A stretch of 46,838 nucleotides of DNA, taken from Bradyrhizobium sp. Its GTDB lineage: Bacteria; Pseudomonadota; Alphaproteobacteria; Rhizobiales; Xanthobacteraceae. The DNA is taken from positions 1 to 46,838 of the forward strand of contig NZ_JAUYAN010000250.1 of the NCBI RefSeq assembly GCF_030693485.1. Reading direction: 5' to 3'. Positions 15,204 through 40,861 of this stretch are shown in pieces. The position numbers were made by a program, and so were the translations under genes. Each line of letters opens with the position of its first letter. Positions within the stretch are counted from its first letter, which is position 1. The notes beneath the pieces were generated by a model, which ran no database searches, was not told the origin of the DNA, and was given only the letters and a program-made list of their open reading frames with translations.

Positions 15204-16297
15204 TCAGTCATTAGAGCCCTTCGACTTCTTGGTTCGCTTCGGTTCTGGAAGGAGCTTCTCTTGTTGTTTCAGAAGCGCTAGCGCTGCATCTGCCTCAGCG
15301 TGCCGCACAGCTCTCCGCTTCTCATTGAATTGCTTGTACTCGTTTAGAGCGTGGGCCTTCGCTTTCGCCGCCTTTACTGTCCCTCCACCCCGAAGCACAT
15401 TTCGCCCCAGTGACTTCAATTGGGAATCCAGTAGAGTTTCGACTTCGAGCATCGTGCTTATTCGGCCCAAGTCTAGCTGATCTTCGAATATATCGAGTAA
15501 GATGGTCGTGAGCCGGTTGAGTTCTTTGATCTCCGATTCAACAAGATATTTTTTGCAACATCCGCGTCAGCCTGAGTAACCCTTTCGCCCCTCCACGTTC
15601 GCAACCCCATATTCTCATGGTCTGCGTTTGCGCGGCTCACGATCATTTCCGATGGCGTGTGCGTGGTAACTGCCCACATGAACTTCGCTTGGGTGTGTGC
15701 GTAGAATTCATGCCACTTCGTTGACTTCGGATCGTAGTCGCTGCACATCGCGCAAACGCTCCGAAGCTCGCGATAAACATTCGCTTCGTCGGAACGGATG
15801 TCGCGAATAATTTCGCGTAACTCTGCAACGCGGTCCCTGGCTTCCGGCGCCTTGAGTTGCTCTGCGTCAATGACGAAGCCTTTTGTCGCAAACTGAACGA
15901 GCTTGTCAGTAGCCCAGCGCCTGAACAGGGTCGCTTGGGATGATGACACCCGATAGCCAACTGAGATGATCATATCGAGGCTGTAGAGCGTGGCCGGGCG
16001 CCCTGTGGATAATTGCGCTTTTTGCAAAGAACTATCTTCTGAGAGTTCTCCCTCTTCTATTATGTTATTGATATGTCTAGATATTGTAGACACATCTCGG
16101 CCAAAAAGTTCTGCGATCTGGCTCTGAGTCATCCACAGGGTATCGCCATCGTACCGAAGTTCGATCCGGATGCCTTTTTCAGTTCCATAGATAAGCAGTC
16201 GGTCGCCGGTCGCGGCATCCTCTACCAAGTGCACAGGTTCTGTCGGGATGGGCTCATTTGCCGTCCAGATAGCACGATTCCGCCCTGCAAGATACAT
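15204..16297 (-). pseudogene. rhuM: RhuM-family protein gene, split by a -1 frameshift
   Basis: RhuM (virulence RhuM/DUF4062-neighbour family) proteins carry a KilA/phage-regulator-like N-terminus and are often found on mobile islands. The first frame (16297-15473) encodes the N-terminal part, including LWMTQSQIAELFGRDVSTIS, LDMIISVGYRVSS, FRRWATDKL, then MGLRTWRGERVTQADADVAKN. After that, the family sequence continues in the -1 frame (YLVESEIKELNR, then the 15204-15470 segment). The break is at the A6 run (T6 at 15549-15554 on plus). Restoring one base gives an intact protein of about 363 residues. GC is far below the flanks, implying recent import. It could be a true pseudogene, a sequencing error, or programmed slippage at A-AAA-AAT. 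Confidence 0.8.
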
Positions 16298-29966: not shown

Positions 29967-30569
29967 TTAGATTCTCGATCGTCGTACCCGCACATACAGC
30001 GCGCCTTCGCCGCCATGGCCGATATGGGCTTCCTCGAAACCGACCACCAGCGAACGGAATTCGGGCAGGCTCAGCCATTGCGGCACCTGGCGGCGCAGCA
30101 CCCCGCGTTCGGATTCCGCGCCAATCTTGCCCTTGCCGGTGATGACGAGCACGAAGGTCAGGCCCTCACTGTGGGCGCGCTGCAGGAAGCCGAACAGCAC
30201 CCGATGGGCGCGGGTTTGCGTCATGCCGTGCAAATCGAGCCGCGCATCGATCTCCTTGCGTCCGCGCGACAGCTGCGAACGCTCGCGGCGCCCGAGCGGG
30301 GCCAGCGGCGGAGCGGTCGGCGGCAACGCGGGTCTGGCAACGCGCGGCAATTTAGCCGGTGGAAGCAGCTTCGGCGGGGTTGCGGGTTTTGCGGCGGCCG
30401 GCGTTGCGGGATCCGCGGGCGCAATCTGCGCCTTGGCGGCGCGGGCCCTTTTGCGCAGCGGTTTTGTCTGCTTGGCGACGCTCTCCCACAGCGTGCGCTC
30501 TTCCTCGCTCAGGCTGCGCCGGCGCCGCGGCGCTGCGGGCAGTTCCGGAATCGGGGGCGGACGTTTCAT
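29967..30569 (-). CDS. Smr-domain protein
   Basis: Protein of 200 residues, possibly a nuclease or RNA-binding protein of the MutS2-related Smr family. The N-terminus is a basic, proline- and alanine-rich linker (about 1-100, with LWESVAKQTKPLRKRARAAK). The C-terminal Smr domain carries LDLHGMTQTRAHRVLFGFL and the loop VITGKGKIGAESERGVLRRQVPQWL. The start ATG 30569 overlaps the mltA stop (ATGA), so translation is coupled. The longer frame to 31244 is a shadow of mltA. Confidence 0.88.
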   Translation of the reverse strand: MKRPPPIPELPAAPRRRRSLSEEERTLWESVAKQTKPLRKRARAAKAQIAPADPATPAAAKPATPPKLLPPAKLPRVARPALPPTAPPLAPLGRRERSQLSRGRKEIDARLDLHGMTQTRAHRVLFGFLQRAHSEGLTFVLVITGKGKIGAESERGVLRRQVPQWLSLPEFRSLVVGFEEAHIGHGGEGALYVRVRRSRI

Positions 30570-35154: not shown

Positions 35155-35763
35155 TCAGATGCCAAGCAGCCGCTCGTTGCGCAGAAACCCGAGCAAGGCC
35201 AGCAGTGGCAGTCCAAGGATGGTGAAGTGGTCGCCGTCGATGCGCTCGAACAGATGCACCCCCAGCCCTTCGAGCTGGTAGGCGCCGACGCTGGAGGTCA
35301 CCGCCTCTCCTGCCATATCCAGATAGGTCTGGATTTCAGCCCCGCTGAGCTGCCGCATGGTCATGCGTGCGATAGCGGTGTTTTCGAACATGATCTTGCC
35401 GTCGCGCGCGACCGCAACGGCGGAGTGCAGTTCATGAGTTCGGCCAGCTAGATCGCGTAGCTGCTCGCCGGCCGCGGTACGGCCGGCCGGCTTGCTGAAC
35501 AGCCTGGTCTCCAGCGCCAGGGTCTGATCGGCGCCGACGACATATTTTTCCGGCTGGCGTATCGACACGTCAAGCGCCTTCACGCGCGCAAGAAGCGCAG
35601 CTATTTCACCAGGCGCTGACAGGGCGGAGGATTGCTGCACGGCGCGCTCATCGATGTCGGCCGGAACGGCTTCGAAATGAATGCCGGCATTGGCCAGCAG
35701 CATCTGCCGCGTGCGGCTTTGCGACGCCAGGATCAACGGATCTTTGCCGCGCCACAGCGTCAT
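35155..35763 (-). CDS. maf: Maf/YceF-family nucleotide pyrophosphatase
   Basis: House-cleaning pyrophosphatase of the Maf fold, 202 residues. Visible: [15 protein letters not shown] at the N-terminus, the acidic motif [10 protein letters not shown] in place of the usual GADT stretch, and [19 protein letters not shown] near the C-terminus. In this subgroup the substrate may be m7GTP or another modified nucleotide. The start ATG 35763 overlaps the ppsR stop by four bases (ATGA). Confidence 0.9.
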
Positions 35764-36596
35764 TCGGAAATCCGCTGCCGTTGCCGGTCGGTGAACAGTT
35801 TCAGTATTGCAGCAGCCGTTTCTTCGATCGACCGCCGTGTCACGTCGAGCTGGGCCCAATTGAATCTCGCGCACAATTTCCGCGCGTAGGCGACCTCGTC
35901 GGTGACCGATTGCCGATCGATGTAGGTGTCATTGTCCCGGTCACCCATGCTTAACAGCCGGTTCTGCCGAACCTGAATGAGGCGTTCGGGCGTGGCGTGA
36001 AGACTGACCACCAGCGGCTTCTTCAACGTCTCCAGTTGATGCGGGATTGGAATGCCAGGGACCAGCGGCACATTGGCCGTGCGGATGCCGCGATTGGCGA
36101 GATAGATCGAGGTCGGTGTTTTCGAGGTGCGCGATACACCGACCAGGATCACCTCGGCTTCTTCCAGCCCTTCGACATGCTGACCGTCATCATGCATCAT
36201 CGTGTAATTCAGCGCATCGATGCGCTTGAAATATTCCGTGTTCAGGACGTGTTGGGCGCCGACTCGGCCGGTCGTGGCGGCGCCGAGATAGGCCTGAAAC
36301 AATTGCATCACCGGACCGATAATCGAAAGGCTCGGGATATTCATTTCCCTGCACTTGGCTTCCAGCCGGGCGACCAGATCCTTTTCCAGCAGGGTGAACA
36401 ACACGATTCCGGGAGCTTCCTCGATTTCATCGAGCACGCGATCGAGCTGCTTCTGGCTGCGCACCAGCGGATAGACATGTTCGACCGGCGTCACATTGGC
36501 GTATTGCGCGGCTACCGCACGCGCCACCGTGATCAGGGTCTCACCGGTCGAATCGGACACCAGATGAAGATGAAAATAATTGCCGGTCGTAGGCAC
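35760..36596 (-). CDS. ppsR: Pyruvate phosphate dikinase/PEP synthase regulatory protein
   Basis: Bifunctional kinase-pyrophosphorylase of the DUF299 family that controls PPDK or PEP synthase by phosphorylating a threonine. It is 278 residues. It starts [20 protein letters not shown]. The P-loop-like [18 protein letters not shown] is at 153-170 and a C-terminal [11 protein letters not shown] closes the protein. This gene flanks the chromosome origin in many Alphaproteobacteria. It reads away from the 483-base gap on its right. Confidence 0.95.
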
Positions 36597-37079
36597 CTAG
36601 ACCCCTGTGTATCCTGTGAATCGCTGTGGAGTTTACCTGAGAGAATCGAACACGAACCGGGCTGTCCGGGATAACCCGGCTTTTTCTGCACAGGCCTCCT
36701 GTTCGGGATAACTCCATGCGGTCGGTGCAATGATAGTGTGGTTATGTGGACTTGTCTCTTGATAAACCGTCCGTCAAGTCAGCCAAGCATATGAAACAGA
36801 TCATGATATCCGGCTTGTCAGGATGAGCGCGGGATATGTTGATGGATGTGAACAAGTGCTGACAACGTCGCGGTGGTTTTGCGCTGGCGCTAATCACAGC
36901 TACTTAGACTCAAACCTAAGATTCTAAACTAGGTTATTTAGAAAGGCTGGGGGTGAGGATATGTCTGCCGTCGAGCCAGGACCGCCCTCGTGCTAAGCCT
37001 GCTTCACCGCAACGCTGCGATCCGGTGACACGTTCCGGGGCTGCGGCGGAAATTTGCCAACCGGGGTTGAGACGTCGCG
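36597..37079. other. Candidate chromosomal replication origin (oriC)
   Basis: Gene-free 483 bases between divergent ppsR and hemJ. The AT-rich core at about 36900-36950 (TTAGACTCAAACCTAAGA, then AACTAGGTTATTTAG) is unlike the GC-rich surroundings. Four CcrM-type GANTC sites occur: 36618, 36643, 36907 and 36920. One-mismatch DnaA boxes are TTCTGCACA near 36684 and TGTGAACAA near 36847, plus weaker sites such as TGTGGTTAT near 36738; no perfect TTATCCACA is present. Genes on each side point away from the gap, and parA-parB with four parS lie within 8 kb. The origin near ppsR is known for Caulobacter and relatives; its use here is inferred. Confidence 0.6.
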
Positions 37080-37502
37080 ATGTACGAATGGATCAAGGCG
37101 CTGCATGTCATCGCGGTCATCTCGTGGATGGCTGGCATGCTCTATTTGCCGCGGCTGTTCATCTACCACTGCGACGCTGAGGTCGGATCGAAGCAGTCCG
37201 AGACGTTCAAGATCATGGAACGCCGGTTGCTGAAGGCAATCATCAATCCGGCGATGATCGTGACCTGGCTGGCCGGGCTATACCTCGCCTGGTCCGGTGG
37301 CTGGCTTTCCGCCGGCTGGTTCCACGGTAAATTGCTGCTGGTGCTGGTGCTGTCGGGCGTGCACGGGTTTTTCGTCCGACTGGTGAAGGATTTTGCTGCT
37401 GACAGGAATGTCAGGCGTCAGAAATTTTACCGTATTATCAATGAGGTACCAACCGTTCTGATGGTCGTCATCGTGATTCTCGTGATCGTTAAGCCGTTTT
37501 GA
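37080..37502 (+). CDS. hemJ: Protoporphyrinogen IX oxidase HemJ
   Basis: Integral membrane protein of 140 residues that oxidises protoporphyrinogen IX to protoporphyrin IX in heme synthesis. Four membrane helices are apparent. The conserved His of the first helix is H9 in WIKALHVIAVISWMAGMLY, followed by LPRLFIYH, and conserved residues in NPAMIVTWLAGLYLAW. It is the first rightward gene beyond the candidate origin. hemE, a frequent neighbour at this position in other Alphaproteobacteria, is not present between it and ppsR. Confidence 0.93.
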   Translation: MYEWIKALHVIAVISWMAGMLYLPRLFIYHCDAEVGSKQSETFKIMERRLLKAIINPAMIVTWLAGLYLAWSGGWLSAGWFHGKLLLVLVLSGVHGFFVRLVKDFAADRNVRRQKFYRIINEVPTVLMVVIVILVIVKPF

Positions 37503-37654
37503 GGGGTTTCGCCGTCAACATCCCGAACCGCGGGCCTGCTTGCGGAAGTCCGTCCGATTTTCTATATTGCTGAAATCCCACCCCACGCAGGCGGATGTGG
37601 TCGTGTTCCGGTTTTCCATCGAACCGGCCGCCGCATCAGGTTTGAAGCCTCACC

Positions 37655-37757
37655 GGCGCTTTCCTTGCTCAGACCTGCGGACCTTGCTTTTGCTCGCGTC
37701 CGCATTTTCTCAAAGCCTCCTCGCAACCCTCCCCCACGTTACTCCACAGGACCATCC
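37655..37757 (+). promoter_or_regulatory. C-rich, G-poor leader of rho (possible rut site)
   Basis: In the last 100 or so bases before rho, I counted about 44 C against 17 G on the coding strand, with runs such as CTTTCCTTGCTCAGACC and CAACCCTCCCCCACG. Unstructured C-rich RNA is what Rho loads on. In E. coli and others, rho is autogenously controlled by termination in its leader, so this is a candidate for the same control. Confidence 0.4.
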
Positions 37758-37759
37758 CA

Positions 37760-39349: not shown

Positions 39350-40702
39350 ATGCATCCGCGGGAACAGACGATTTTTGCCCTTTCGTCGGGCCGGCCGCCA
39401 AGCGCCATTGCTTTGGTGCGAGTCTCCGGGTCCCAGGCCGGTCCGGTTCTGACCGCTTTGGCCGGCAAGATTCCGGCGCCGCGGATGGCGACGCGGGTGC
39501 TGTTGCGGGATGTTGCGCAGCAGCCGATCGACGATGCGGTGGTGCTGTGGTTTCCGGGACCGGCCAGCGCGACTGGCGAGGATGTCGCGGAATTTCACGT
39601 TCACGGCGGCCGCGCGGTGCTGGCGGCGCTTTTCACGGCGCTTGCTGCTTTCGAGAATATCCGCGCCGCCGAGCCGGGTGAATTTACCCGTCGCGCCTTC
39701 GAGAACGGCAAGCTCGACCTCACCGAGGCCGAAGGTCTCGACGATCTGATTCATGCCGACACCGAGCGGCAACGCCGCCAGGCGCTGCGGCAGTTGAAGG
39801 GTCTGCTCGGCGACCGCGCGCGCGACTGGCGCGCCCAGATCATCGAGGCCTCGGCATTGATCGAAGCCGGGATCGATTTCTCCGACGAGGCTGACGTGCC
39901 GGCCGAACTGATCGCGCCGGCGCTGCTGAAAGTCGAAGCCTTGCTTGCGGAAATCGAAGAAGTCCTTGCGGCACAGGGCCGCAGTGAACGGCTGCGCGAC
40001 GGCCTGGTGGTCGCGATCGCGGGCCCGCCGAATGTCGGAAAATCGACGCTGATGAATTATCTGGCGCGGCGCGAGGTGGCGATCGTCTCGCCGCATGCCG
40101 GCACCACGCGCGACATCATCGAGGTGCAGCTCGATCTCGACGGCTATCCGGTGACGGTGATCGACACCGCCGGGATTCGCGAGACCGACGATCCGGTGGA
40201 GCAGGAGGGCGTCCGGCGCGCTCGCGCCCGTGCGGCCGAGGCCGACCTGGTGCTGTGGCTGGCCGATGCGCAGCCCCAGAAAATTCTATCCGGGGCCACT
40301 GCGCCGGTTTGGCTGGTGCGCAACAAGATTGATCTCGACTCGGATCCGGCCGTTGGGGCGCAAGCAAATCGGGGTGGGGGCCGGGGCGACGCTGCGGCCG
40401 AATTTCGGATCTCGGCCAGCCGGGGTGACGGGATGCCGGAACTGGTCGCGGCGGTGGTTGGATTCGCCCATGATTATTTCGGTTCGGACGACGGTGGATT
40501 GATCGGCAGGGCACGGCAGCGAAAATTGCTGAAGGAGACGGCGGCTTCGTTGCGGCGCAGTGTTGAGATCGTCGGCAACGGGGAGGAGCTTGCCGCCGAG
40601 GAGCTACGGGCTGCGGCCTATTCGGTGGGGCGGTTGCTCGGGCGGGTCGATGTCGAGGATATTCTCGACGTGATCTTCCGGGATTTTTGTATAGGGAAGT
40701 AA
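39350..40702 (+). CDS. mnmE: tRNA modification GTPase MnmE
   Basis: With MnmG, it adds the carboxymethylaminomethyl group to U34 of certain tRNAs. It is 450 residues. The N-terminal folate-binding domain ([20 protein letters not shown]), the helical domain, then the G domain inserted at about 218-375: G1 GPPNVGKST (225-233), G2 GTTRDI, G3 DTAG and G4 NKID. It ends in the diagnostic CIGK. mnmG follows after 159 bases that carry two parS sites. Confidence 0.97.
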
Positions 40703-40746
40703 GTAATATTTCTTTGTTCATTTCATGGAACGTGATGGAACTGGAT

Positions 40747-40762
40747 TGTTTCACGTGAAACA
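40747..40762. promoter_or_regulatory. parS: parS centromere site 1
   Basis: TGTTTCACGTGAAACA, a perfect 16-base match to the bacterial parS consensus, in the mnmE-mnmG gap. ParB binds it and loads CTP-clamps that spread along DNA. Confidence 0.95.
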
Positions 40763-40787
40763 ACGCCTTTTCGCCCTCCGGAACCGG

Positions 40788-40803
40788 TGTTTCACGTGAA
40801 ACA
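40788..40803. promoter_or_regulatory. parS: parS centromere site 2
   Basis: Second perfect TGTTTCACGTGAAACA, with its centre 41 bases from site 1. The two together are in the intergenic region upstream of mnmG. Confidence 0.95.
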
Positions 40804-40861
40804 GGCTCACGAGGCGAACTTACCACTTCCGGCTTTCGCCGCCCCGCGATAAAAGCCTCAC

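Follow-up and report, generated by a model that had tools for sequence, protein, structure and literature searches.

The 483-bp gene-free gap between ppsR and hemJ, at positions 36597–37079 of the window (the whole stretch of 46,838 nucleotides analysed), is very probably the chromosomal replication origin (oriC) of the Bradyrhizobium genome from which the window comes and of its relatives. This reading is well supported by the nearness of the GC-skew minimum, a conserved architecture of boxes and core, the occurrence of one core per genome beside ppsR wherever the strict core pattern was found, and a bridge genome (G166) described below. The initial annotation had put forward a candidate chromosomal origin here, and its proposal is supported by a skew minimum within 5.4 kb in three of four chromosomes and by conservation of both the AT-rich core and the boxes. 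Bradyrhizobium is a major nitrogen-fixing symbiont in which ori and ter markers serve to study the cell cycle and the ploidy of bacteroids; our literature search, which covered titles and the beginnings of abstracts with most subscription journals outside its coverage, found no experimental mapping of an origin in the genus.

The ppsR–hemJ gap and its conservation

The window is one contig (C257) of a 368-contig draft genome, and the nearest relatives of its ppsR, among the matches listed, are Bradyrhizobium MAGs and isolates. The gap had been annotated as a gene-free region at the switch between leftward and rightward genes, and its edges do coincide exactly with the GTG start of ppsR (minus strand, ending at 36596) and the ATG of hemJ (37080). 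PF03618 is presumably equivalent to DUF299/COG1806, and we take PF03653 to denote hemJ, the gene names given to the other Pfam families of the window being likewise our assumption. To the left, ppsR is followed by maf, coaE and dnaQ, and to the right hemJ is followed by rho, mnmE, mnmG, rsmG, parA and parB; rsmG and parA were named by sequence and position, and parB carries PF02195 and PF17762 and ends 8.3 kb from the gap. The GC content of the gap is 53%, compared with 64% for the window.

Table 1. Features of the proposed origin and its surroundings (positions in the window)
Feature	Position	Strand	Remarks
ppsR	35760–36596	−	Kinase-PPPase, PF03618 (Pfam 4.7e-90); left flank of the gap
hemJ	37080–37502	+	PF03653 (Pfam 1.6e-59); right-hand flank of the gap
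Proposed oriC proper (conserved part of the gap)	36601–36972		Majority frequency averages 0.71 across 56 cluster representatives
Three weak DnaA-like 9-mers, GGATACACA, CGATTCACA, AACTCCACA	36606–36633	−	CACA conserved in 28, 53 and 54, respectively, of the 56 representatives
DnaA-like box B4, TTCTGCACA	36684–36692	+	CACA in 93/93 rows; at most one mismatch to TTATNCACA in 92/93
Weak DnaA-like box B5, AAGTCCACA	36745–36753	−	CACA in 72/93 rows; commonest form AAATCCACA
DnaA-like box B6, TTGTTCACA	36847–36855	−	CACA in 91/93 rows; at most one mismatch to TTATNCACA in 87/93
AT-rich putative unwinding element	36891–36940		30% GC; the lowest-GC 50-mer of the gap begins at 36891
Core, TTAGACTCAAACCTAAGATTCTAA	36904–36927		Imperfect inverted pair TTAGANTC-N8-GANTCTAA with two GANTC sites
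mnmE–mnmG (gidA) gap	40703–40861		Two parS palindromes at 40747 and 40788; likeliest place meant by the Ori-Finder rule

A DNA search with the gap found a match in 57 of 60 genomes of the genus, its own included, some matches covering only 30–100 bp. For alignment we used loci L002–L110 except L018 and L074, which have no hemJ match, together with the window, giving 108 gaps of 414–578 bp, 93 of them unique and falling into 56 clusters at 80% identity. Beyond the conserved part (Table 1), positions 36973–37079 are unconserved, with a mean majority frequency of 0.27 over the 56 cluster representatives when mostly-gap columns are set to zero. Six conserved blocks were delimited (36609–36632, 36675–36693, 36733–36766, 36841–36854, 36883–36939 and 36952–36964), a list that omits two stretches of 2 and 4 bases passing the same threshold. 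Conservation of the AT core and the boxes in close relatives had been set beforehand as a check on the proposal, and both are conserved.

DnaA-like boxes and the AT-rich core

As already annotated, no perfect TTATCCACA occurs in the window's gap (36597–37079), and the several boxes with one or two mismatches reported there are borne out as DnaA-like 9-mers: six differ from TTATCCACA at no more than two positions (1.15 expected; six were reached in 1 of 1000 simulations), and two lie within one mismatch of TTATNCACA against 0.32 expected (40 of 1000 simulations). These predicted near-DnaA boxes are enriched and conserved, none being perfect in the window. Perfect TTATCCACA was found in one and perfect TTATNCACA in eight of the 108 gaps, while domain IV of the genome's DnaA aligns without gaps to E. 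coli chain 1j1v through GGRDHTTVLHA; a wholly different DnaA box is therefore not expected, and the degenerate DnaA code suggested by the initial annotation fits these data. Box B4 has TTCTTCACA as its commonest form among relatives. The CACA-type boxes other than B4 and B6 are four in number and weaker, and the 9-mers at 36606–36633 mostly have two or three mismatches to TTATNCACA. Moreover, the TGTG/CACA tetramers of the window's gap are more often common to relatives than other tetramers (mean 0.65 versus 0.21, n = 8, Mann–Whitney p = 0.006), although two of the eight were found in no other cluster representative. Inspection of the gap by eye revealed no obvious DnaA-trio repeats.

The density of TTATNCACA-like 9-mers (at most one mismatch) sets this gap apart from its neighbours, being 4.90 per kb in ppsR–hemJ (79 sequences) versus 0.20 in hemJ–rho (78), 0.23 in rho–mnmE (74), 0.07 in mnmE–mnmG (73) and 0.00 in parA–parB (72); in the comparison with shuffles it was 4.94 against 0.48 per kb expected. 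The hemJ–rho gap is better conserved than ppsR–hemJ: across 72 aligned sequences, 94 of its 257 columns reach at least 95%. It was rejected as an origin on its low near-box density and on the appearance of its conserved blocks. By eye, the stretches at 37530–37690 and 37740–37759 resemble a promoter and a long rho leader; no Rfam match at the gathering threshold was obtained for this gap, and its consensus fold is weak.

The AT-rich core placed at 36900–36950 by the initial annotation is confirmed, with the lowest-GC 50-mer of the gap starting slightly to the left (Table 1) and a GC content as low or lower in just 15 of the 46,788 50-mers of the window. Of 73 gaps, 59 hold ACTCAAACCT, and 57 of these have their AT minimum at the core. 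The element adjoins the DnaA-like boxes at a conserved position, as expected of an oriC with a putative unwinding site. Elsewhere in the window, the lowest-GC 50-mers lie at 40681–40733, across the end of mnmE and the poorly conserved start of the mnmE–mnmG gap, and the least stable 60-mer by nearest-neighbour energies lies at 16025–16084.

Four GANTC sites, where one or two were expected, had also been reported in the gap. The four sites are present (36618, 36643, 36907 and 36920), and an enrichment by count was rejected: 2.0 are expected, and 140 of 1000 first-order simulations also reach at least four. What counts is the conservation of two of the four within the core, where they are kept in 87 and 90 of the 93 unique gap rows, rather than the total number.

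We then searched 149 genomes of the family, the window's own included, for the core pattern GANTCAAACCTNAGANTCTA with at most one mismatch, using the reversed pattern as control. It was found in 22 genomes from 8 of 47 genera (4 of the 7 sampled in the genus), in exactly one copy each; the reversed control had no match in any of the 149. All 22 cores lie 307–381 bp upstream of the ppsR start on the same contig, these distances being taken by hand. The strict pattern is absent from the other 127 genomes, which need not mean that they have no core, because variant cores occupy this alignment position in loci of Afipia and Rhodopseudomonas. For part of the family, the core offers a simple 20-base origin marker, and it makes tests of DnaA binding, methylation control and the minimal origin directly feasible.

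Chromosome position and competing readings

Skew was analysed in four of the 15 single-contig genomes of the genus (G015, G054, G025 and G053), all complete Bradyrhizobium chromosomes, because the genome of the window is too fragmented; the skew of the window itself, too short and noisy (minimum at 30137), was discarded. Taken over about 400 kb, cumulative GC skew reaches its minimum at −0.4 kb (G015), +2.1 kb (G054) and −5.4 kb (G025) relative to the core. A minimum located elsewhere had been named beforehand as evidence against an origin here; it is within 5.4 kb of the gap in three of the four chromosomes and about 80 kb off in the fourth (G053, +79.9 kb), which has another dip, 7 counts shallower, 9.7 kb from the core. 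The displaced minimum of G053 (contig C1, 8,689–8,769 kb) perhaps reflects a rearrangement or insertion near the origin. In the 420 contiguous kb examined of G015 (7.84 Mb), the minimum is at 5,317,934, the gap at 5,317,425–5,317,900 and dnaA at 5,516,543, about 199 kb from the gap. In coarse sampling of this whole chromosome (20 samples of 20 kb), skew was positive on the arc from 5.46 Mb to 1.17 Mb with one exception and negative from 1.56 to 5.07 Mb with two, the sign changing at about 5.1–5.5 Mb and at the roughly opposite point of 1.2–1.6 Mb; in all, 3 of the 20 samples run counter to this pattern. Block permutations, which covered G015, G054, G053 and G078, reached the change-point statistic in 0 of 2000 cases in both G015 and G054 and, at the displaced point, in 2 of 2000 in G053. 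In G078, of another family, there was no skew minimum at ppsR and 380 of 2000 permutations reached the statistic; we treated its skew as uninformative evidence. As a check on the opposite pole, a dif pattern built on what we take to be the consensus had no match with at most one mismatch in 17 genomes. Skew thus supports the neighbourhood of the gap and speaks against dnaA, while the 4-kb separation from mnmE–mnmG is beyond its resolution.

That the origin adjoins dnaA, as in many other bacteria, can be given hardly any credence: although the contig begins within 400 bp of the dnaA match in 7 of the 17 complete genomes searched, and depositors therefore treat dnaA as the start, mean skew from the gap to the dnaA end is positive (about +0.015) in G015 and G054, with no minimum at dnaA. 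A published alternative lies much closer. Ori-Finder (2008) gives TGTTTCACG as the DnaA box of Bradyrhizobiaceae and places their origins next to gidA, the passage not stating on which side, and its predicted origins in ten genomes adjoin gidA at the GC-disparity switch and contain TGTTTCACGTGAAACA (PMC2275245). The Oligotropha OM5 genome paper describes a 150-nt origin containing four of these boxes (PMC3091675), and the Bradyrhizobium Lb8 paper also relied on Ori-Finder (PMC7020250). Ori-Finder 2022 is described as scoring lineage-specific indicator genes (PMC10225481), and its placement may already differ from the 2008 rule. Some DoriC origins are called wrong in a 2026 paper, Bradyrhizobium being unnamed in that passage (PMC13342612). 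The 150 nt of the OM5 origin would fit two palindromes in a short gap such as mnmE–mnmG. We take TGTTTCACGTGAAACA to be the parS palindrome and TGTTTCACG to be half of it. Perfect parS (GTTTCACGTGAAAC) occurs at 40748, 40789, 42749 and 42890, the only four copies in the draft genome, which agrees with the parA–parB genes and four parS sites that the initial annotation had noted nearby. Each of 18 genomes has 2–5 perfect copies, and 17 have all of them no farther than about 8 kb from the gap; in the other (G004) they are at the opposite end of the contig, next to the gap only if the chromosome is circular. GTTTCACGTGAAAC was present in 73 of 73 mnmE–mnmG gaps versus 0 of 73 ppsR–hemJ gaps, and the latter lack the combination on which Ori-Finder relies, a position next to gidA together with TGTTTCACGTGAAACA.

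We consider it improbable that the origin lies next to gidA, likeliest in the mnmE–mnmG gap, with TGTTTCACG as a species-specific DnaA box. The published proposal for ten genomes, with its GC-disparity switch and TGTTTCACGTGAAACA (PMC2275245), the overlap of the window's lowest-GC 50-mer (28%) with that gap and a skew resolution compatible with a point 4 kb away all favour it, but the motif has the form of a parS site with the ParB gene close by, near-DnaA boxes are far sparser there (0.07 versus 4.90 per kb), and DnaA domain IV looks canonical. Moreover, mnmE–mnmG is poorly conserved save for parS and a stretch before mnmG, and among 73 genomes its AT minimum undercuts that of ppsR–hemJ in 5, equals it in 3 and exceeds it in 65. 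The ppsR–hemJ gap shares with the Ori-Finder oriC the same 10-kb neighbourhood and lies near the same GC-disparity switch, but it differs in lying about 4 kb off; the ‘DnaA boxes’ of the published site appear to be parS halves, with almost no TTATNCACA-like boxes. A rule that sets the family oriC some 4 kb off and reads apparent ParB sites as DnaA boxes may have passed its error on to dependent predictions. Also improbable, in our view slightly more so, is that the gap is a promoter and leader region serving the divergent ppsR and hemJ genes, its conserved blocks being regulator sites with no origin. The gap does lie between divergent genes, the core is an imperfect inverted repeat such as a dimeric regulator would bind, and hemJ–rho shows that non-origin gaps in this neighbourhood can be strongly conserved. 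The core, however, goes with ppsR and not with hemJ, its partner gene in G166 being hemE; about 370 bp with DnaA-type boxes exceeds, in our judgement, the need of two promoters; and the skew minimum is near the gap in three of four genomes. Promoters and an origin may also share the gap.

Relation to the Caulobacter origin

In Caulobacter crescentus, the origin (Cori) has been mapped between hemE and CC0001, a COG1806/DUF299 gene (PMC1914354). Like Cori, the proposed Bradyrhizobium origin adjoins a COG1806/PF03618 gene (ppsR) and has an AT-rich stretch of about 40 bp and putative DnaA boxes; unlike Cori, it is without hemE as its other flank and has a core with paired GANTC, typical of its family. 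GANTC methylation sites presumably occur in Cori too, as in the Bradyrhizobium gap. The exact CtrA consensus TTAA-N7-TTAA was found in 0 of 108 gaps, and the IHF consensus WATCAANNNNTTR in 2 of 108, with none in the window even at one mismatch. Thus, the likeness to Caulobacter drawn by the initial annotation holds for the position beside COG1806 and does not extend to CtrA sites.

We infer DnaA binding, opening at the core and a role for methylation. DnaA would bind the two better boxes (36684–36692 and 36847–36855) and the surrounding weaker CACA-type boxes and oligomerise rightward to open the AT-rich core at 36891–36940, where the helicase would be loaded. Immediately after initiation, both GANTC sites of the core would be in the hemimethylated state, and CcrM-type methylation could therefore mark a newly fired origin, which ParB at parS, 4–6 kb to the right of the gap, would then segregate. 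The RAMA domain (PF18755), found among 14 control genomes only in Caulobacter, is matched once in the window's genome, and we take the protein for a CcrM-like methyltransferase. A bolder idea, unlikely as it stands, is that CtrA control was lost from the origins of the Bradyrhizobium family, which would instead be gated by a paired CcrM site in inverted arrangement (TTAGANTC-N8-GANTCTAA) within the unwinding element, with hemimethylation after firing, or a protein reading it, blocking re-initiation. If true, these origins would have a methylation switch of their own, different in kind from both CtrA control in Caulobacter and SeqA/GATC control in E. coli.

The hemE gene of the window's genome is on another contig (C28). 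A search of 28 family genomes placed hemE next to the core in one, G166 (contig C152, 9279–11506), a 66%-complete draft of a different genus with the core in its ppsR–hemE gap; the remaining 27 have hemE on a different contig or at least 1 Mb away. The ppsR-[core]-hemE order of G166 appears intermediate between the Caulobacter and Bradyrhizobium layouts. Outside the family, we examined 20 of 37 Hyphomicrobiales genomes with a ppsR match; for 3 of these loci tblastn did not locate the ppsR start, and the gap was counted from base 150. The order ppsR-gap-hemE-hemJ occurs in 19 of the 20, G077 having no hemE there. Because G166 keeps ppsR-[core]-hemE and 19 of 20 other-family genomes have this order, the ppsR–hemJ gap is best read as the old ppsR–hemE origin after hemE moved away, a layout suggesting that hemE departed and the origin remained with ppsR. 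A search for the Bradyrhizobium core with up to seven mismatches in 24 other-family sequences gave nothing except a marginal match at exactly seven in L187. The other-family gaps share the left flank and, but for hemE, the gene order of the Bradyrhizobium gap, and differ from it in the presence of hemE (19 of 20) and of perfect TTATCCACA (4 of 20). No near-DnaA box was found in 6 of the 20, yet taken together these gaps are likewise box-dense, with 5.02 per kb versus 0.65 in control gaps.
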